NCBI GenBank assembly: GCA_903886485.1
Contig: CAISMH010000019.1
Span: 62,001-126,000, forward strand
Direction: 5' to 3'
Source: an uncultured Burkholderiales bacterium
GTDB lineage: Bacteria; Pseudomonadota; Gammaproteobacteria; Burkholderiales; Burkholderiaceae_C
Length of the DNA: 64,000 nucleotides
Shown: positions 34,343-43,189 of the stretch, one piece after another
Layout of the letters: every line of letters begins with the position of its first letter
Numbering within the stretch: the stretch's first letter is position 1
Notes under the pieces: generated by a model
Database searches by the model: none
What the model was told of the DNA's origin: nothing
The model's input: the letters and a program-made list of their open reading frames with translations, nothing else
Translations under genes and position numbers: made by a program

Positions 34343-34918
34343 ATGGCATCTTCCACAGATCACACGTCTGAGAGTCAACAACTCGGCCCCAACACAGCTG
34401 ACAAATTCTTTCTGGTTTTTTTAGCCGTCATCACTGTTGCAGTGACGTGGCTAGGCGTCATCAATTACAAAGAAGCGCTCAAAACTGAAACCGCTAAAAG
34501 CAATGGCGAGGCCTGGGTGGCATGGCTGATAGAAACTGGCACGACCCGCTTCGAACCCAACACAGCGCATCCTGCTTGCAAAGGTGGCGTCAAACCGCCC
34601 GCCGATGCCAAAGCGGGTGCTCCCGGCACTTGGGGCGCGTGTTTGGCGCACATCTTGGAGACCACTGAGCTGAAAGATCAAATCAACACGTTCTTCAATG
34701 TTGCACCTCATTTTGTTGCGGCCTGTGTGCCCTCGGACCGCACCCTCATGGGCGCGATCTTGCTGGAAGACTTGATGCCCACACCCCCTGGTTCGGCCAC
34801 GCCCTATGTGACGACGCAGCTGATCGAGGCTGATCCCATTGATTACAAAATGCAACTGCGTTTGTCCGTTTGCGACAAGGGTGGCTACGCCATCAAAGTT
34901 GCTGAATTCGAATTCTGA
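34343..34918 (+). CDS. Hypothetical single-pass membrane protein heading the ion-channel cluster
   Basis: This is a 191-residue protein I do not recognise. A single membrane segment spans about residues 21-41 (DKFFLVFLAVITVAVTWLGV), leaving a short cytoplasmic N-terminus and a roughly 150-residue C-terminal, probably periplasmic, domain. That domain has four cysteines (in HPACKGG, WGACLAH, VAACVPS and LSVCDKG) that could pair as disulfides. The channel gene follows after eight bases, so the two are almost certainly co-transcribed. An accessory or sensor subunit of the channel is a reasonable guess, no more. Confidence 0.75.
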   Translation: MASSTDHTSESQQLGPNTADKFFLVFLAVITVAVTWLGVINYKEALKTETAKSNGEAWVAWLIETGTTRFEPNTAHPACKGGVKPPADAKAGAPGTWGACLAHILETTELKDQINTFFNVAPHFVAACVPSDRTLMGAILLEDLMPTPPGSATPYVTTQLIEADPIDYKMQLRLSVCDKGGYAIKVAEFEF

Positions 34919-34926
34919 GGTCTGAC

Positions 34927-36564
34927 ATGGAAAACAAACACGATAAATTTCTGAAAGACCTCAACGTCCAAGCCATCCTTGGACACGACGAAGAGGCCAA
35001 CATCGATCGCCATTTGCCCATGCGCAAATGGCTTTACGCTTGGCTGTTGGACCCGAACATTCACGGGAATTTCCAAAAAGAATTGGACAAGTGGATCAGC
35101 TATCTGATCATTGGTAACTTGTTCAGCTTGATGTTTGAGCACGTCCCAGCGGTGTACGAACCTTACCGCGCATGGTTTGAGTTGTTTGACATCTTCTCTG
35201 TTGTCGTGTTCACCGTTGAATACGCCATGCGGTTTTACCTTGCACCTGAGGACGAAGAGTTCAAACACCGCAAGCACGCCCGCTGGAGCTTTATTTCTAG
35301 CCCGTTCGCCATCATCGACTTCTTGGCTGTGGCCCCCTTCTACTTGAAGGCGTTCATTCCTATTGACTTGCGCGTGTTGCGATTCCTGCGACTGTTGCGA
35401 ATCTTGAAGTTGTTCCGCGTCTTGATCCCTGCCATGGCTGAGTTCAAAGAACTCAACAAAAACCGCACCTTCCGCCAAAAAGTTCACGCTCTGGTCTACC
35501 CCAGCAGTTACGGCGGCACCATGCAAAACATCTTCGAGGTGTTCATTGCCGTGTGGGTGTTGTTGTCCGTGATGGCTGTGATTTTGGAGTCCGTCAAAAG
35601 CATTCACTACGTGTTGCATTTGCAATTTGTCATCTTGGATGCCGTGGCGGTGGCCATCTTCACGGTGGAGTACTGCATGCGCATCTACTCATGCGTGGAA
35701 GAGCCGGGCTACAAAGGCGCACTGCTGGGCCGATTCAAGCAAGCCAAGTCACCCTCGACCTTCATCGACTTCTTGGCGGTGCTGCCCTTCTTCTTGGAAG
35801 TTTTCTTGCATCACCTGATGGACTTGCGGTTCTTGCGGGTGTTTCGTCTGGCGCGATTGCTCAAACTCACTCGCGGCAGCGATGCCACTGCCGTGTTGGT
35901 CAAGGTGGTGGTTCGCGAGTGGCCCGTCATGGGCGCGGCAACTTTCATCATGATGCTGCTGTTGGTGTTGACCGCCAGTCTGGGTTACTTGTTTGAATAC
36001 GACGCACAGCCCGAAAAATTTGAAAACATCCCCACTGCTATCTACTGGGCAGTCATCACCTTGGCTTCTGTGGGTTATGGCGATATCTCGCCCGTCACCC
36101 CCATGGGCCGCGCCATGACGAGTGTGCTGGCGCTGTTAGGCATTGGTATCTTCGCCATCCCTGCGGCGTTGTTGGCCTCGGCCTTCAGTGACGAATTGGT
36201 GAAAGAGCGTGACCAATTGAAGGCCAACTTGTTCGCCATCCTCAAAGACGGCCACATCAGCGATGAAGAGGCCGTGGTGATTCGTGCAGAAGCCAAACGC
36301 TTGCATTTGACTACCGCAGAAGTCAATGCATTGATTGAGGTGGTGATCAAAGAGCACGAGCTGGAAGAGCGCAACCCATTGCCCATCCACAAAATTGCTG
36401 AGAACCCAGCCTTGGCCGTTGAACACTACAAAGTCTTGTTGGGCCAGATTCGTCAACTCGGCGTGCAAACAGACGAGGCCAAGTTTGAGGCAGCAGCACA
36501 AGAAAGTGCAAGATTGTCATCAAACGAACTTGCTTTGTGGCACAAAATTCAAGGCAAGGCTTAA
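34927..36564 (+). CDS. Voltage-gated K+ channel-like protein with two tandem voltage-sensor domains and one pore
   Basis: This 545-residue protein has an S1-S4, S1-S4, S5-P-S6 layout (predicted 10 membrane segments). Voltage sensor 1 has S2 FTVEYAMRF, S3 AIIDFLAVAP and S4 charges R149, R152, R155, R158, K161, R164. Voltage sensor 2 has FTVEYCMRIY, TFIDFLAVLP and R301, R304, R307, R310, K313, R316. Both keep the acidic S2/S3 residues. The pore filter is canonical for K+ (SVGYGD, residues 381-386), followed by S6 with ALLGIGIFAIPAALLASAF. The cytoplasmic tail contains a DGHISDEE motif (from D441) and a helical remainder. Standard Kv channels have one sensor per subunit, so a tetramer here would have eight. 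A close relative is encoded at 41576-43189. Confidence 0.88.
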   Translation: MENKHDKFLKDLNVQAILGHDEEANIDRHLPMRKWLYAWLLDPNIHGNFQKELDKWISYLIIGNLFSLMFEHVPAVYEPYRAWFELFDIFSVVVFTVEYAMRFYLAPEDEEFKHRKHARWSFISSPFAIIDFLAVAPFYLKAFIPIDLRVLRFLRLLRILKLFRVLIPAMAEFKELNKNRTFRQKVHALVYPSSYGGTMQNIFEVFIAVWVLLSVMAVILESVKSIHYVLHLQFVILDAVAVAIFTVEYCMRIYSCVEEPGYKGALLGRFKQAKSPSTFIDFLAVLPFFLEVFLHHLMDLRFLRVFRLARLLKLTRGSDATAVLVKVVVREWPVMGAATFIMMLLLVLTASLGYLFEYDAQPEKFENIPTAIYWAVITLASVGYGDISPVTPMGRAMTSVLALLGIGIFAIPAALLASAFSDELVKERDQLKANLFAILKDGHISDEEAVVIRAEAKRLHLTTAEVNALIEVVIKEHELEERNPLPIHKIAENPALAVEHYKVLLGQIRQLGVQTDEAKFEAAAQESARLSSNELALWHKIQGKA

Positions 36565-36573
36565 GCCCTTGCC

Positions 36574-36600
36574 AAGCGGCCACTGCTGATGTGGCCGCTT
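36574..36600 (+). terminator. Strong hairpin between channel genes, possible attenuating terminator
   Basis: AAGCGGCCAC and GTGGCCGCTT form a perfect 10-bp stem with a 7-base loop directly after the first tandem-sensor channel gene. The following bases are TGTTGTG, not a pure T tract, so termination may be partial or the hairpin may protect the upstream mRNA end. Confidence 0.55.
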
Positions 36601-36645
36601 TGTTGTGTCGCCATTTGATTCATTTAATTTCGTTAGACCTTCGCC

Positions 36646-37557
36646 ATGACAACAGGTATCAAGCACACCTTGATGGAGATATTGGACGGCTCGCCCAAAC
36701 ACACGGCGAGTCGATACATTGAGTGGCTCATCACCCTCGTCGTACTCGTCAATTGTTCGGCCGTGATTCTTGATTCGGTTCCAGAAATTCATGCCGAATT
36801 CAAAGAGTTCTTCCACGAGTTGGAGTTTTGGAGTGTGATGTTTTTCACAGTGGAATACATCGCACGTGTGTGGTCCCTAGGTGCCAAGTACGACCGTGAC
36901 AATGGTGGGTCTTGGAAAGGTCGCTTTCAATACATGTTCAGCCCATTTGGTTTGGTGGACTTCTTTGCCACCATGCCGCATTACATGCACATGTTCTTTC
37001 CGGCGCTCGACTTGCGCATCTTGCGTGTGTTGCGTTTGCTGCGAATTTTGAAACTCTCCAAGTACAACACCGCATTGCAAGACTTGTTTCATGCGGTGTA
37101 CTCCGAACGTCAAGCCTTTGGCTCTGCAGTGTTCTTGCTGACCATCGCCACCATCGTGTCGGCCTCCTTGATGCACTTCGCTGAGGGTCATTTCCAGCCC
37201 GAATTCTTTGGCACGATTCCACATTCGATCTACTGGGCCATCGTCACCATCACCTCGGGTTACGGCAACGTCGAGCCCATGACCAAATCAGGCGAAGCGA
37301 TTGCATTGATCACGGGCTTTTTGGGCGTGTGTATGGCCGCGATCATGACCGGTATCGTGGCTTCTGCTTTTTCAAACCAAGTCGCACGCAAGAAAGCGGC
37401 GTTTGAAGCGCAGCTGCGTGAAGTGTTCTCAGACGGCAATATGTCGCAAGAAGAGCAAGAAACCCTCAAGCGCTTGCAAGCCCATTACCGCTTGTCGGAT
37501 GAACAAGTCGAAGCCATGATGCTCCGCGCCAAAAACAAATCGTCAGCCTATGAATGA
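36646..37557 (+). CDS. Voltage-gated ion channel-like protein with SGYGN filter
   Basis: This is a 303-residue six-TM channel subunit. S2 reads FTVEYIARVW, S3 GLVDFFATMP, and S4 carries R124, R127, R130, R133, K136 and K139 at every third position. The pore sequence is TITSGYGNVEP (T203-S-G-Y-G-N208): Ser replaces the usual Val/Ile, and Asn-Val-Glu-Pro follows instead of Asp. The C-terminal tail (about residues 261-297) has a DGNMSQEE helix-pair motif shared with three other channels here. It overlaps the next channel gene by eight bases, suggesting a heteromeric partnership. K+ selectivity is not assured with this filter. Confidence 0.85.
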   Translation: MTTGIKHTLMEILDGSPKHTASRYIEWLITLVVLVNCSAVILDSVPEIHAEFKEFFHELEFWSVMFFTVEYIARVWSLGAKYDRDNGGSWKGRFQYMFSPFGLVDFFATMPHYMHMFFPALDLRILRVLRLLRILKLSKYNTALQDLFHAVYSERQAFGSAVFLLTIATIVSASLMHFAEGHFQPEFFGTIPHSIYWAIVTITSGYGNVEPMTKSGEAIALITGFLGVCMAAIMTGIVASAFSNQVARKKAAFEAQLREVFSDGNMSQEEQETLKRLQAHYRLSDEQVEAMMLRAKNKSSAYE

Positions 37558-38521
37558 GCGCACCATGACCTCAGCAGCTCCCATCCCCAGCTCAACATTT
37601 CAGCGCTTCAAGCGCCGCACCTTCGAAATCATGGAAGGCGAAGTGCCTGACAAATACAGTCACTTTGTTGAGATCTTCATTGCAGTCCTCGTGGTTGCCA
37701 ACGTGATTGGCATCATCTTGGAGTCTGTGCCTGAAATCCACGAAGCATTCATGTTCGAATTTCACGCATTTGACGTGTTCAGCGTGGCCGTTTTCTCCAT
37801 TGAGTTTGTCATGCGTGTTTGGTCGTATAGCGAAAAATACATCCACAGCGGTGGCACGCCCTGGGATGGCCGCAAAGAATATGTGTTCAGCTTCTACGGC
37901 ATCATCGACTTTGTGAGCACCGTCCCCTTCTATTTGCAACTGATCTTTCCAGGCGCAGACTTGCGCGTGCTGCGCATGTTCCGTTTGATGCGGATTTTCA
38001 AACTCTCACGCTACAACAGCGCGTTTGAAGACATGGTGGCTGCCGTGAAAGCCGAAAAAGACTCCTTTTCATCGGCCGTGTTCTTGCTTTTCATCAGTTG
38101 CTTGTTGTTCTCTTCGCTGATCTACATCATCGAAGGTCATGAGCAACCGGAAGTGTTCCCCTCTATCCCAGCTGCCATGCACTGGTTTGTCATCACCATC
38201 GTGTCCGGTTGGGGCAACGTAGAGCCCGTGACGTTCTTGGGCTCGTTGCTGGTCATCCTCACTCAAATTCTCTCCATCGCCTTGGCTGCTATCTTGACCG
38301 GTGTGGTCGCCACCGCCTACACCGCACAAGTCGAACGTCGACAGGCCTTGTATGAAATGGAAGTTCGATCCGCACTGGCCGATGGCATCGTCACCGATGA
38401 AGAACAAGCCAAACTTAAAATCTTGCAGGCCAAACTGGGCATGTCTGACGAACAAGTAGATGCCATCAAACACCAGATGGAAGAAGAAAAACACATCTCG
38501 GCGGCCAACAAGCAAGCTTAA
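37550..38521 (+). CDS. Voltage-gated ion channel-like protein with SGWGN filter
   Basis: This is a 323-residue six-TM channel subunit related to the preceding gene. S2 reads FSIEFVMRVW, S3 GIIDFVSTVP, and S4 carries R139, R142, R145, R148, K151, R154. The filter is VSGWGNVEP (V218-S-G-W-G-N223): Trp replaces the Tyr of GYG, a rare change, again with Ser before and Asn-Val-Glu-Pro after. The tail has DGIVTDEE (from D278). ATG 37550 overlaps the upstream gene; ATG 37565 is an equally possible start and would shorten the protein by five residues. Probably co-assembles with the SGYGN subunit; selectivity unknown. Confidence 0.83.
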   Translation: MNERTMTSAAPIPSSTFQRFKRRTFEIMEGEVPDKYSHFVEIFIAVLVVANVIGIILESVPEIHEAFMFEFHAFDVFSVAVFSIEFVMRVWSYSEKYIHSGGTPWDGRKEYVFSFYGIIDFVSTVPFYLQLIFPGADLRVLRMFRLMRIFKLSRYNSAFEDMVAAVKAEKDSFSSAVFLLFISCLLFSSLIYIIEGHEQPEVFPSIPAAMHWFVITIVSGWGNVEPVTFLGSLLVILTQILSIALAAILTGVVATAYTAQVERRQALYEMEVRSALADGIVTDEEQAKLKILQAKLGMSDEQVDAIKHQMEEEKHISAANKQA

Positions 38522-38540
38522 ATTTCAATAGAAAGCAAAT

Positions 38541-38765
38541 ATGGATAACGGCGCCTACGGAAAATACAGACAAGAAAATCCCGACGTTTACACGCCGCTT
38601 TCTACTTACGACTACCTCGACCAATTTGTGCACCAATTGACCTTGACGGAGTTGGTGGTGTGCGTGGTAGCGGCTATCTTGGCCGTCTTTGCGCTTTACA
38701 AACTCTTTGTCAAACGCAAAAACAAAAACACCAACGATCAAGACAAATCAAAGGAAAACTCATGA
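38541..38765 (+). CDS. Small single-TM protein in the ion-channel operon
   Basis: This is a 74-residue protein of no recognised family. Tyr-rich N-terminal 30 residues precede one membrane segment (about 37-57, ELVVCVVAAILAVFALYKLF) and a short Lys/Asn-rich cytoplasmic tail. Its stop overlaps the start of the next gene (ATGA), so it is translated and coupled. It could be a small auxiliary subunit of a neighbouring channel, in the manner of single-TM beta subunits; this is speculation. Confidence 0.7.
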   Translation: MDNGAYGKYRQENPDVYTPLSTYDYLDQFVHQLTLTELVVCVVAAILAVFALYKLFVKRKNKNTNDQDKSKENS

Positions 38766-39334
38766 GTGAAGCCCCAGAAACTGAATTGCCACACCACAGC
38801 AACGATCCCTTTCGCACACGTTGTGCCATGCTCGTGTCCACTTTGGCCATGTGCTTGGCGATCGCCAGCTTGGGCGGAAACAATGCCTCAAAAGAAAGCA
38901 TGAGCAACAACATCTTGGCTGCGAATGCCTATTCGTTCTACCAAGCTAAAAACATTCGCCAGACCGACTACAAAATTGCGGCTGACGAACTTCGCGTGCA
39001 ACTGGCGAACGACAAGCTATCACCCGCCGCAAAAGCCTTGGCTGAAAAAAAATTAGAGGGCTATGAAAAGAACATCGCACGTTACGAATCAGAACCTGAA
39101 ACAGGCGATGGCAAAAAAGAGCTGATGGAGAAAGCCAAAGAGCACGAGCACGAACGTGACACCGCCTTGCGTCAAGATCCTTGGTTTGACTATGCCGAAG
39201 CACTGTTGCAAATCGCCATTGTTTTGACTTCAGTGGCTATTTTGACCAGCGCGCAAGTGTTGTTTTGGATACCTTGCTGTTTAGGCATCTTGGGTATTCT
39301 TTCAACCATCAACGGATTTTTTCTGTTCATCTAA
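38762..39334 (+). CDS. DUF4337-family membrane protein
   Basis: This is a 190-residue protein with the layout of DUF4337: a membrane segment near residues 20-36, a charged, helical soluble middle (about 50-130) rich in Lys and Glu, and two C-terminal membrane segments (about 140-190). The motif ANAYSFYQAKNIRQTDYKIA is typical of the family. ATG 38762 overlaps the upstream stop. Function is unknown in the family. Position at the end of a channel operon suggests a membrane-associated accessory role. A bidirectional terminator follows. Confidence 0.8.
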   Translation: MSEAPETELPHHSNDPFRTRCAMLVSTLAMCLAIASLGGNNASKESMSNNILAANAYSFYQAKNIRQTDYKIAADELRVQLANDKLSPAAKALAEKKLEGYEKNIARYESEPETGDGKKELMEKAKEHEHERDTALRQDPWFDYAEALLQIAIVLTSVAILTSAQVLFWIPCCLGILGILSTINGFFLFI

Positions 39335-39350
39335 ACCATCTGACGTTCAA

Positions 39351-39382
39351 AAAAAAGGCCGCTCCAAGAGCGGCCTTTTTTT
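39351..39382. terminator. Bidirectional terminator between the first channel operon and the convergent K+ channel gene
   Basis: AAAGGCCGCTC and GAGCGGCCTTT pair perfectly around a CAA loop, with an A run before and a T run after, so it can terminate both converging units. Confidence 0.92.
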
Positions 39383-39396
39383 GTTGTACAACGAAT

Positions 39397-40428
39397 TTAG
39401 ATATTTTTTGTACGGCTCTTGATCTCGTCTTCAGACATCAGTTCAAGTTCGTAAGCACGACGCTCAGAAATCCATTGACGGCTGACCAACAGTCGCAAAA
39501 TAGTCTCACGCGTCGCTGGGGCTGTGTTGTCCTCTGTGAGTTGTTCGCCGAACAACAACACCATGATCGTTTTGCCAACGATGTTCAACAAAATACCAAA
39601 CAGTACCAAGCCCATCAACATGGTGACAGCTGCAATGACACGCCCACCAAAAGTAATTGGGAACATGTCTCCATAGCCTGTTGTCGTCAGCGTCACCATG
39701 CACCACCACATGGTGGCGGGGATAGAAGTGAAGAAACGTTTGTCCTCTGGGATGGGGTTGCCGCTGATGGGATCCACCGGTATGAATTTGGCGGCCTCTG
39801 GGGGCGCATCAGCAGGCAGAGGTGTTGCTTTGATTTGAGCATCCAACTTGGCTTGACCCAAGGTGATCGCTTCAGCAGAGTACAAATCACCTTCCACGTA
39901 ATACATCAACGTGCTGGAGATCATCACCACGGAAAACAACGCAATGAAGTAGATCTTGAGGTTGGTCAAGATAGGGTTGGAGTTTTCAATTTTGTTCTCT
40001 AATTGCTGAAGTGCAATGCGCGCCATTTTCAAAACTCGCAGCACCCGCACCACGCGCAAGACACGGAAGACCTTGGTACCTTGCAAAGCCGTCAAATTCA
40101 TGATCGTCAAGTAAGTTGGCATGATCGAGATGAGATCCACCAAACCCCAGAAACTGAAAAAGTACTTCATGCGATCTTTGGCAAAGTACAAGTTACCCAG
40201 GTAATCAAGCGTAAAAAATAAAACAGCTGCGTACTCGACGTAGTCAAACAATTTCGCGTTGACAGTGGCATAAGGTTCCACTGTCTCACCCGCCAATGAC
40301 AAGCATGAAATCAAAATCCAGAAATTGATCATGGCGACCCAACGCGTGAATGCACGACTGTTTGGGTCGGTGAAGACACGCTGGATCAAGCTGTCTGAGT
40401 TTTCTTGGAAACGCACATTTGTATTCAT
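39397..40428 (-). CDS. Voltage-gated K+ channel (Kv-like) with canonical TTTGYGD filter
   Basis: This is a 343-residue six-TM potassium channel. S2 has FFTLDYLGNLYF, S3 LVDLISIMP, and S4 carries K119, R122, R125, R128, R131, K134, R137. The filter is TTTGYGD (T248-D254). Between S5 and the pore helix lies an unusually long extracellular loop of about 60 residues (roughly 175-235, Pro/Ala-rich), much longer than a normal turret. The cytoplasmic tail lacks the DG-x-I-x-x-E-E motif of the other channels. It is transcribed toward the first channel operon and divergently from the sodium channel. Likely a voltage-gated K+ conductance. Confidence 0.9.
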   Translation of the reverse strand: MNTNVRFQENSDSLIQRVFTDPNSRAFTRWVAMINFWILISCLSLAGETVEPYATVNAKLFDYVEYAAVLFFTLDYLGNLYFAKDRMKYFFSFWGLVDLISIMPTYLTIMNLTALQGTKVFRVLRVVRVLRVLKMARIALQQLENKIENSNPILTNLKIYFIALFSVVMISSTLMYYVEGDLYSAEAITLGQAKLDAQIKATPLPADAPPEAAKFIPVDPISGNPIPEDKRFFTSIPATMWWCMVTLTTTGYGDMFPITFGGRVIAAVTMLMGLVLFGILLNIVGKTIMVLLFGEQLTEDNTAPATRETILRLLVSRQWISERRAYELELMSEDEIKSRTKNI

Positions 40429-40763
40429 ATGTGTATCTTTTCTTAGTTAAACCAAAACGAAAAATTTGGACATCGCAGATTCTAAGAATCACCAGCCATC
40501 GCTCGGCACCTCGATTGCGACGTCAATTAACAAATTAGAATTTATTTAAAAACTCGAAGAATGAAATATGACAGCAAGACTCTTGTTTATTAATCTAAAA
40601 CAATTCATTTTTATAGAAAAATAATTCAAAAAGAAATGAAAAAAATGCAGGCGTCATTCGCGTCATCAAGGTCACATAAGGGCACAAACTGATCGTGCAA
40701 AGTACGCCTTAAGGTAGAGTGAGGGGTTATAAAAAATCTAACCCTCTGACTTCTAATTTAGCA
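40429..40763. other. AT-rich divergent intergenic region between K+ and Na+ channel genes
   Basis: This 335-bp gap has no credible gene. It is clearly AT-rich (for example 40530-40640). It contains a direct repeat GCGTCAT (40651-40657 and 40660-40666) followed by AAGGTCA, a possible regulator site, and near its right end a hairpin (40721-40746, GAGGGGTTA with TAACCCTC, one bulged G) in the leader of the sodium-channel gene. Promoters for both divergent genes must lie here; I could not assign them with confidence. Confidence 0.6.
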
Positions 40764-41579
40764 ATGCAAAGCAACACCGAAACCGTGACATGGCGTGACC
40801 AAATCGAGCGATTCATCACACACCACGTCGTTCAACACTTTCTTGTTCTCCTCATCGTTGTCAACGCCGCTATCTTGGGCATTGAAACCAACCACAGCAT
40901 CATGGAATCGTGGGGTCATGAACTCTTTTTGCTGGACCACGCCATCTTGGGCATCTTCATCGCTGAAATCGTGCTGCTCATCGCTGCACGCGGCTTCTCG
41001 TTTTTCAAAGATGCTTGGTGCGTCTTTGACTTCATCGTGGTTGGAATTGCGCTGGTCCCAGCCTCTGGCTCTTTGTCTGTGCTGCGTGCGTTGCGCGTGT
41101 TGCGGGTACTGCGCCTGATCAACAAAGTTGAGAGCATGCGCAAAGTCGTCGGCGGCTTACTCAGCTCATTGCCAGGTCTGGGTTCAGTGTTTGGTCTGAT
41201 CATGATCATCTTCTACGTGGCCTCAGTCATTGCGACCAACATCTTTCACAAGGACTTTCCCGATTGGTTTGGTGATTTGGGCATGAGTGCCTTCACACTG
41301 TTCCAAGTGATGACGCTGGAGAGTTGGTCAGACGGTATTGCACGCCCCATCATGGAAGTGTTTCCCTATGCGTGGATCTTCTTCATTTTGTTCATCTTGA
41401 TCGCCACCTTCATCATCTTCAACTTGTTCATCGCGGTGATCGTGGATTCCATCACGGCAGACAAAGAAAAAGATCATCGTGACCATCATCATCAATTGAG
41501 CATGCAAGACGAACTTCAAGAAATTCGCCAAGAACTAGCCTCATTGCGCCAATTACTGATAGACAAACAAAGCAGATGA
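40764..41579 (+). CDS. Bacterial voltage-gated sodium channel (BacNav/NaChBac family)
   Basis: This is a 271-residue homotetrameric sodium channel subunit. It matches the NavAb/NaChBac pattern throughout: FFKDAWCVFDFIVVGIALVP for S2-S3, S4 with R108, R111, R114, R117 (VLRALRVLRVLRLI), the pore FQVMTLESWSDG (filter T184-L-E-S-W-S-D190), then MEVFPYAWIFFILFILIATF and S6 ending NLFIAVIVDSI. The C-terminal 35 residues form a predicted coiled coil after a His-rich neck (DHRDHHHQ). ATG 40764 fits the short N-terminus of the family; a GTG at 40719 would add 15 atypical residues across the leader hairpin. Its stop overlaps the next channel's start (ATGA). Confidence 0.96.
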   Translation: MQSNTETVTWRDQIERFITHHVVQHFLVLLIVVNAAILGIETNHSIMESWGHELFLLDHAILGIFIAEIVLLIAARGFSFFKDAWCVFDFIVVGIALVPASGSLSVLRALRVLRVLRLINKVESMRKVVGGLLSSLPGLGSVFGLIMIIFYVASVIATNIFHKDFPDWFGDLGMSAFTLFQVMTLESWSDGIARPIMEVFPYAWIFFILFILIATFIIFNLFIAVIVDSITADKEKDHRDHHHQLSMQDELQEIRQELASLRQLLIDKQSR

Positions 41580-43189
41580 CCACGCATCACGCTCATTCAC
41601 ATCCCTCTGCGCTGAGCATTTTTTACAAGTGGGTCTTTGACCCCGAACATAAAAACGGCTTTTACGAAGTGGTGGAGCGCAGCATTGCGTTCTTGATCGT
41701 TGCCAGTGTTCTGGCGGTGTTGATTGAAAACACGCCCGAAATCTACAACACACACACCGCATGGTTTCATTGGTTTGATGTCGTCACGGTCGGCATCTTC
41801 ACCGCCGAATACGTGATGCGGGTGGCGACCGCGCACTTGAACCCAGAGTTTGCAAGCCAGCGCTTTCCTCGCCTGCGCTACGCCTTGAGCTTTTATGCCT
41901 TGATCGACTTGGTCGCCATAGCCCCGTTTTACTTTGCGCGTTTTGTAGATGTCGATGTAGAAATGTTGCGCGTCTTACGGGTACTGCGATTGGCGCGAAT
42001 GTTCAAGCTTTCGCGTCAACTCATCCCAGCTTGGCACGAGTTTCAAATGCTCAACGAAGGCCGCAGTTTGCGTGCCAAAGTGTTCGCCATGCTCGAGCCC
42101 ACCGGACACTCTGGCCGCTTGCACAGCTACATCGATAACTTCGTGGTGTTTTGGATTGCCTTGTCCATCACCTGCGTGGTGTTTGAAACTGTGGCCTCGG
42201 TGCGCAGCTTGTTTGCCGTGGAGTTTGAGGTCATCGATGTGATGGCCTTCACGATCTTCACCATCGAATACATCGCACGCGTCTACACCGCCCCCGAAAA
42301 TCCAAAATTCAAACACTTACGCATGCCGCACTGGGCACATGTGCGGACTGGTCAAGCCATCATCGACTTGCTGGCGATTCTGCCGTTCATCCTGGAGAGC
42401 TTGTTCAGCCAGCATGTGGATTTGCGCTTCTTGCGCGTTTTCCGACTCATGCGGATGCTCAAGCTCACGCGCTACACATCAGCCATGGAGACGCTGTTCA
42501 AAGTAGTCATGCGCGAATGGCAAGTGATCTTCGCTTCGGTCTTTGTGATGATGTTGCTTGTCATTCTGACGGCCAGCTTGGGCTATTTGTTTGAACATGA
42601 TGCACAGCCTGATAAGTTTGAAAATATTCCACAGTCCATCTACTGGGCTGTGATCACGCTCGCGTCCGTTGGCTATGGCGATATCTCGCCCATCACACCG
42701 CTGGGTCGTGCGCTCACCGTGGTCTTGGCCTTGGTCGGCATTGGCATCTTCGCCATTCCTGCTGGTTTGCTGGCCTCTGCATTTACAGATCAATTACGCA
42801 TTGACCGCGAGGCCTTCAAACAACGTTTGATGCATGCTTTTGAAGATGGCATGCTCGACAACTCAGAGCGCGAGTTGATCGTGGCCGAAGCGGAGCGGTT
42901 GCATTTGTCGCATGACGAAGTCAAACGCTTGACGGACGAAGCACGCAGCGAGTTTGCAGACAAAGAAGCCGCCAACCACACCCAAGCCAACGGCTTGGTG
43001 CTGGATGCCAAAGCTCACCCTGCGTTGGCTGCTGCGCAGTTCAAATTGCTGATCGCACAACTGAGCCTGATCGCTCAAGCCACTGGCGAAGTCGCCTTGC
43101 GCAAAGGCCTCGAGGAAAACAAAACCGATGTGCAAACCGAGCTGGATGTGCTGGCCTTGATCGTCAAGCCCAAAAGCGAAGGCGCATGA
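41576..43189 (+). CDS. Second tandem-voltage-sensor K+ channel-like protein, coupled to the sodium channel gene
   Basis: This 537-residue protein has the same S1-S4, S1-S4, S5-P-S6 plan as 34927-36564. Sensor 1: S2 FTAEYVMRV, S3 ALIDLVAIAP, S4 R132, R135, R138, R141, K144, R147. Sensor 2: FTIEYIARVY, AIIDLLAILP, S4 R284, R287, R290, R293, K296, R299. The filter is SVGYGDISP (S364-P372) with S6 GIGIFAIPAGLLASAF. The tail has DGMLDNSE (D424) and about 110 further, mostly helical residues. The start overlaps the sodium channel stop by four bases, so Na+ and K+ channels are made from one message. A 7-bp hairpin (43206-43223) follows the gene. Confidence 0.88.
   Translation: MTTHHAHSHPSALSIFYKWVFDPEHKNGFYEVVERSIAFLIVASVLAVLIENTPEIYNTHTAWFHWFDVVTVGIFTAEYVMRVATAHLNPEFASQRFPRLRYALSFYALIDLVAIAPFYFARFVDVDVEMLRVLRVLRLARMFKLSRQLIPAWHEFQMLNEGRSLRAKVFAMLEPTGHSGRLHSYIDNFVVFWIALSITCVVFETVASVRSLFAVEFEVIDVMAFTIFTIEYIARVYTAPENPKFKHLRMPHWAHVRTGQAIIDLLAILPFILESLFSQHVDLRFLRVFRLMRMLKLTRYTSAMETLFKVVMREWQVIFASVFVMMLLVILTASLGYLFEHDAQPDKFENIPQSIYWAVITLASVGYGDISPITPLGRALTVVLALVGIGIFAIPAGLLASAFTDQLRIDREAFKQRLMHAFEDGMLDNSERELIVAEAERLHLSHDEVKRLTDEARSEFADKEAANHTQANGLVLDAKAHPALAAAQFKLLIAQLSLIAQATGEVALRKGLEENKTDVQTELDVLALIVKPKSEGA

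Follow-up and report, generated by a model that had tools for sequence, protein, structure and literature searches.

Why should six relatives of the voltage-gated ion channels lie side by side within about 9 kb of a bacterial genome, and do they belong together? The window examined here is 64,000 nucleotides (nt) of DNA from an uncultured Burkholderiales bacterium (GenBank assembly GCA_903886485.1, contig CAISMH010000019.1, positions 62,001 to 126,000), and the block in question, positions 34343..43189 of the window, encodes nine proteins, here named A to I, of which B, C, D, G, H and I are voltage-gated-channel relatives. Their scores against the Pfam family Ion_trans ran from 84 to 159 bits, against a cut-off of 25. 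A profile search of the whole 2.49-Mb source genome (21 contigs, completeness 100) located eight Ion_trans stretches, all of them inside this block; they correspond to six genes because B and I carry two sensor domains each. Such clustering is far beyond chance. Forty genomes of the same order but outside the genus held 0 to 3 stretches each, with any at all in 22 of 40, and the 61 genus genomes counted all had between 1 and 16. An earlier note on the window had described the six channels, their filters and three small membrane proteins, and this description was borne out: the filters read SVGYGD (B and I), SGYGN (C), SGWGN (D), TTTGYGD (G) and TLESWSD (H), B and I each have a second stretch of transmembrane segments S1-S4, and the small proteins are present as open frames A (191 amino acids, aa), E (74 aa) and F (a DUF4337 protein).

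Comparison with relatives indicates that the block represents a cluster of channel genes that is conserved in freshwater bacteria of the Limnohabitans group and built from two linked pairs, A-B and C-D. The reading favoured here, to which we give a probability of roughly 0.45, joins these two pairs with the prediction that C and D together make a voltage-gated cation channel whose K+ selectivity has likely been lost or weakened. It draws on the pairings, the charges of S4, a shared shortening of the filter, the single placement of that shortening on a tree and the signs of purifying selection, all of them read from the sequences.

Two linked gene pairs

The four core genes lie on the forward strand of the window, A at 34343..34918, B at 34927..36564, C at 36646..37557 and D at 37550..38521, so that 8 nt separate A from B and C overlaps D by 8 nt. 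The nine genes were mapped onto 40 loci and onto 80 named loci of relatives, and 84 genomes of the genus were surveyed; many of the genomes are incomplete metagenome-assembled genomes (MAGs), and some contigs occur among both the named loci and the genus genomes. In the genus survey, the C and D counts are of matches above the listing cut and include fragments, and the B counts take in a second group at 52-55% identity. A and B were found together in 70 of the 84 genus genomes, with A alone in one and B alone in one, and 68 of 75 A matches lay immediately ahead of B. Among the matches listed, C and D occurred together in 54 of 84, C alone in one (G007) and D alone in two (G045 and G123), these three single matches being partial or starting at a contig end; D directly followed C for 53 of the 56 C matches. 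All four genes were listed in 48 of 84 genomes, and B was directly upstream of C in every one of the 49 genomes listed with both. Of the 80 named loci, a number of them truncated by contig ends, 56 showed A-B-C-D as a contiguous run. Spacing was equally regular, with a median C-D distance of -4 nt over 71 loci and an A-B gap of exactly 8 nt in 53 of 62.

Each pair also occurs by itself. A-B was found without C-D in G019, G027, G038 and family f32, the last including the single-contig genomes G426 and G452. C-D was found without A-B in G052 and G043, where no A or B match was obtained genome-wide at the cut-offs used, and at the loci of G416 and G358 (family f18), where just C and D matched at E<=1e-40. 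Since both separations are seen, the core consists of two separate modules. C and D genes were also seen in MAGs titled Oxalobacteraceae (L142-L147), Burkholderiales (L148) and uncultured bacterium (L150), and the contig of L146 starts with part of a second C.

The remaining genes, E to I, are additions in near relatives and vary among these. The complete A to I layout was present in only five of 80 named loci (L075, L077, L078, L081 and L082), which rules out a single fixed cassette of six channels. Clustering in relatives, which the earlier note had proposed as a check, holds for A-B and C-D, which are kept across the genus and beyond, and fails for the six channels as a unit. The variability of E to I, together with the further channel genes found elsewhere in the genomes of several relatives, would suit another explanation, in which channel genes that are each useful by themselves gathered by chance at an integration hot spot and share no role. 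We consider this very unlikely, as the pairing, order and short distances of A-B and C-D hold over 40-95% identity and the C-D pair is kept in other families as well.

The block has a lower guanine-plus-cytosine (GC) content than the remaining window (0.502 against 0.585); the earlier note had observed a lower GC than in the purine genes to its left and taken it as a hint of separate history. The difference is real, but at third codon positions it is modest, seven block genes giving values of 0.55-0.70 and four flanking genes 0.68-0.73. A separate history is not supported by the GC content, and recent import was rejected as the explanation: the A-D block is below its flanks in GC in 45 of 48 measured loci of relatives, so that low GC is a poor sign of import, and the same ABC-transporter and/or flavin-reductase genes adjoin the block in many relatives. 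The closest named loci come from freshwater MAGs titled Comamonadaceae or Burkholderiales, with C identities of up to 95%, and the isolates among the close loci are Limnohabitans sp. Jir61 (92%) and JirII-31 (87%).

The filter of C and D

C (303 aa; Ion_trans 98.6 bits) and D (323 aa; 84.3 bits) are six-helix channels with the Ion_trans match and S4 charges of a voltage-gated K+ (Kv) channel. The full-length T-x-G-Y-G-D segment is not present in either. Where a Kv-type channel has T-x-T-T-V-G-Y-G-D, C has T-I-T-S-G-Y-G-N and D has T-I-V-S-G-W-G-N, so that in both the filter glycines come one residue sooner after the pore helix; alignment of C with Kv1.3 placed a gap of one residue at the filter. 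The shortening was found in 80 of 80 C sequences (78 by motif and two SGSGN filters read directly) and 71 of 71 D sequences, counting as C those rows with at least 60% identity and dropping two lower rows with TTVGFGD filters. It was also found in all 120 database homologues listed of 4493, which had themselves been drawn from 7999 scored candidates. Outside the C-D clade, a full-length segment was present in 43 of 43 related channels (17 + 26), these being the ones with loci read from samples of 399 order genomes and 398 phylum genomes. After the filter glycines, 79 of 80 C sequences and 70 of 71 D sequences have Asn and none has Asp; 78 of 80 and 71 of 71, respectively, retain Gly-aromatic-Gly. 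Two C filters, at L145:5628-6515 and L147:2721-3608, have drifted further to TITSGSGN.

In a phylogenetic tree, C and D formed sister clades with Shimodaira-Hasegawa-like approximate likelihood ratio test (SH-aLRT) values of 97 and 100 and a joint branch of 99, adjoined by a full-length TTVGYGD channel from L154 (support 82). The shortening maps to one change, before the split of C from D. This first tree gave a long-branch warning; a second, made without the filter columns and the nine long rows, still placed the shortening as one change, with a joint C+D branch of 92. Five S4 charges (R124, R127, R130, R133 and K136), along with E70 and D105, were invariant across 25 C and D rows, and the median ratio of nonsynonymous to synonymous substitution rates was 0.053 for C and 0.072 for D (11 sequences each). 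Because the sensor charges and countercharges are kept and these ratios indicate purifying selection, C and D are not decaying genes.

An altered filter need not be a non-selective one. It is possible that C and D are each ordinary homotetrameric K+ channels in which the pore helix ends one residue early and the filter, TSGYG or VSGWG, remains K+-selective. Several points weigh here against the reading that we favour: the site of the missing residue is not one that sequence alone can fix, a pore helix that stops a residue sooner could leave a four-site filter, and the TSGYG of C still matches TxGYG literally. The retained Gly-aromatic-Gly motif and the otherwise Kv-like pore likewise speak for ordinary channels. 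Set against them, the shortening is confined, as far as the channels read show, to one clade and is shared by all members of it, the nearly constant Asn would be odd for a neutral trimming of the helix, and the SGSGN filters depart further still. In D, moreover, the position of the filter Thr is taken by V or I, which makes the filter argument stronger for D than for C. On balance the homotetrameric alternative seems unlikely, though it keeps some weight.

C and D differ from Kv channels in having one residue fewer before the filter glycines and, nearly always, Asn after them. NaK has no voltage sensor. Its filter, TVGDGN, is described as having two ion sites and being non-selective (PMC9822992), and C and D resemble it in departing from the K+ filter and in the Asn after the last Gly; the NaK filter, however, has K+-channel length, whereas C and D keep Gly-aromatic-Gly and lose a residue. 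They are also K+-channel relatives by sequence, and not relatives of the bacterial sodium (Nav) channels NaChBac and NsvBa.

Whether C and D combine with each other or with B is a separate matter. In animals, silent KvS subunits join Kv2 channels, and these and the CatSper-type heteromers offer an analogy to the block in that several paralogous pore subunits are accompanied by small membrane proteins. By this analogy C and D might be silent or modulatory subunits joining B, with A as an auxiliary protein. The adjacency of B and C wherever both were listed fits such a role, as do altered filters combined with conserved sensor charges; C-D lies directly behind A-B in most of the genus, and a role with B is conceivable. 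It should be added that co-occurrence and overlap are no proof that C and D co-assemble, and that the two genes are up to 7.5 kb apart in some Oxalobacteraceae loci. The separate occurrences described above, with C-D lacking any A or B match in G052 and G043, C and D standing alone at the stricter threshold in G416 and G358, and A-B without C-D in genomes such as G452 and G426, make the silent-subunit explanation quite improbable in our judgement. As C-D occurs without B, a C:D pore is favoured over C or D as helpers of B.

Tandem-sensor channels and added genes

B (545 aa; Ion_trans 158.7 bits) has the Ion_trans match, S4 charges and full-length GYGD-type filter of a voltage-gated K+ channel, and differs from Kv channels in an additional S1-S4 domain, matching Ion_trans positions 7-111, ahead of the usual S1-S6. 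The S4 charges of both sensors (R149/R152/R155/R158/K161 and R301/R304/R307/R310/K313/R316) were invariant in 32 rows, and ASVGYGDISP was found in 34 of 34. A structural model of B had the helices in the expected order, with a mean predicted local distance difference test score (pLDDT) of 74.8, a predicted template modelling score of 0.59 and values below 50 at filter residues 383-385. The second tandem-sensor channel, I (41576..43189, forward strand, 537 aa; Ion_trans 148.5 bits, two stretches), has 43% identity to B, the same ASVGYGD filter and an additional sensor that matches Ion_trans positions 4-112, and belongs to the added genes.

When B was compared with 321 class and 388 phylum genomes, the matches listed began at position 156 or later, in the six-helix part; the only ones covering more were the window's own genes and one gene of G426 (family f32, same order). 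In three long open frames among the B matches, no second sensor in front was found by eye within the first 400 residues. No prokaryotic family of S1-S4 plus S1-S6 was described by title or opening of the abstract in a literature search that mostly left subscription journals aside. The B homologue at G017:C20:48692-50775 (L187) is interrupted by a TAG stop and preceded by a shorter A, and looks like a broken copy.

A, the orphan partner of B, has one N-terminal membrane helix (about 22-40) followed by a domain with four invariant cysteines (79, 100, 128 and 177), from which the domain probably lies outside the cytoplasm. It gave no Pfam or NCBIfam match, and among its 951 homologues at E<=1e-3 the 120 listed had no Pfam domain. 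In an AlphaFold2 model (pLDDT 87.4), residues 18-68 make one long helix at the N-terminal side and the domain contains strands; a structure search with this model gave no clear match in the PDB, and a type IV pilin fold is one candidate for A.

Of the added genes, E (38541..38765, forward strand) encodes a protein with one hydrophobic segment by hydropathy, without a Pfam or NCBIfam match above the curated cut-off. It begins 19 nt past D in the window and 18-26 nt downstream of D in 11 of 11 measured named loci having both, and was seen just in near relatives. F (38762..39334, forward strand, overlapping E by 4 nt) is a 190-aa membrane protein of the DUF4337 family (PF14235, 158.3 bits, 2.4e-46) with two hydrophobic segments. 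G (39397..40428, reverse strand, 343 aa; Ion_trans 98.0 bits) is a channel with a long insert ahead of the pore helix; like B and I it shares the charged S4 and full-length GYGD filter of Kv channels, and it follows F at this place in six of 80 named loci.

H (40764..41579, forward strand, 271 aa; Ion_trans 148.4 bits) overlaps I by 4 nt; its start was taken by eye as the ATG at 40764 and not the upstream GTG at 40719. In the PDB it is closest to chains that carry the name 'Ion transport protein' (5hvx and others, E 2.9e-72), and its single six-helix domain and TLESW filter fit a bacterial Nav channel, for which TLESWxxG is given as the conserved filter (PMC4225499). Some relatives have two or three sodium-channel homologues within 20 kb (L068, L069 and L070; 56-59% identity to H), and filter variants among 17 H-type genes include MTGDGWSD and MTLEGWSE.

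Neighbours of C-D and a predicted role in ion homeostasis

Several loci depart from the A-B-C-D layout. In G052 (L048), G043 (L051), L142, L145, L147, L148, L179 and L180, C comes after a gene for a protein with a double DUF1538 domain, PII-type genes and a gene for a 242-aa protein, with only part of this run on the contig in some cases; L088 and L139 are the same contigs as L048 and L051. The same run, cut by contig ends, precedes C in L093, L140 and L143. It is best seen at L048:3496-6828, L142:6530-9880 and L179:3620-6988, where it comprises the DUF1538 gene, two PII-type genes and the 242-aa frame, the last without a Pfam match, and it is possibly a PII-controlled cation antiporter system. 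The DUF1538 protein resembles UmpA and UmpB, scoring below the curated cut-offs for both; UmpAB is reported to be a Na+(Li+,K+)/H+ antiporter (PMC5484666). A CLC gene follows D in L048, L051, L093 and L179, and NhaD and CPA1-type genes are near C-D in several of these loci. In L142, L143 and L148, D lies beyond these genes, with a divergent B (44%) between on the other strand.

Two further observations concern these loci. Between the CLC and NhaD genes at L048:10098-11219, and also in L051, is a 373-aa protein with a voltage-sensor-like half (Ion_trans 6-144) and a stretch without a Pfam match. L093 (CAMDKR010000149.1) is titled a Bordetella parapertussis MAG and has a PII-PII-242-aa-C-D-CLC run like that of the freshwater MAGs; the title is probably misassigned.

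The antiporter and CLC genes that accompany C and D elsewhere, in other lineages, make ion homeostasis more likely than electrical signalling, the other half of the role that the earlier note had suggested for a six-channel cassette, and C-D is predicted to serve ion and pH homeostasis. For the strain of the window this link, drawn from those lineages, is indirect: just four of 84 genus genomes gave a DUF1538 match (all four with C-D, on the same contig in three), and PF07556 (DUF1538) was not found in the window's genome, 14 control genomes likewise giving no match.

In the mechanism proposed for this role, the genes of the cluster would be co-transcribed, and C and D, which are linked and co-occur, would form one heteromeric pore. 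Loss of one residue and replacement of Asp by Asn would remove or distort an ion site and so weaken K+ selectivity, by analogy with the two-site filter of NaK. Opening of C-D would then let cations re-enter the cell and supply cation/proton antiporters, much as Nav channels are described as supplying Na+ to antiporters in alkaliphilic Bacillus (PMC4225499). B, modulated by A, would carry K+ out again and reset the membrane potential, and in the strain of the window H and I may provide a way in for Na+ and another path for K+. We propose more tentatively, as a doubtful extension, that C and D might be an obligate heteromer on a K+-channel scaffold with a three-site filter, forming with A-B a depolarising/repolarising unit by which freshwater bacterioplankton would couple voltage to a pH and ion homeostasis driven by antiporters.

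Literature searches on Limnohabitans channels, heteromeric prokaryotic channels and sodium-channel gene clusters, with most subscription journals outside their reach, gave no paper describing this system by title or opening of the abstract. What is new in the voltage-gated superfamily is a clade-wide filter shortening in a conserved gene pair, along with a tandem-sensor channel that has an orphan partner. Few short sequences in biology are as conserved as the K+-channel filter, and a clade that keeps the loss of one residue with its sensor charges intact is a natural experiment on how filter length relates to selectivity. B and I pose the question of what a second voltage sensor does ahead of a complete channel. 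If C and D must combine, they would be a bacterial heteromeric voltage-gated channel that is simple to dissect, and as the group carrying these genes includes the named isolates Jir61 and JirII-31, knock-out and recording are thinkable.

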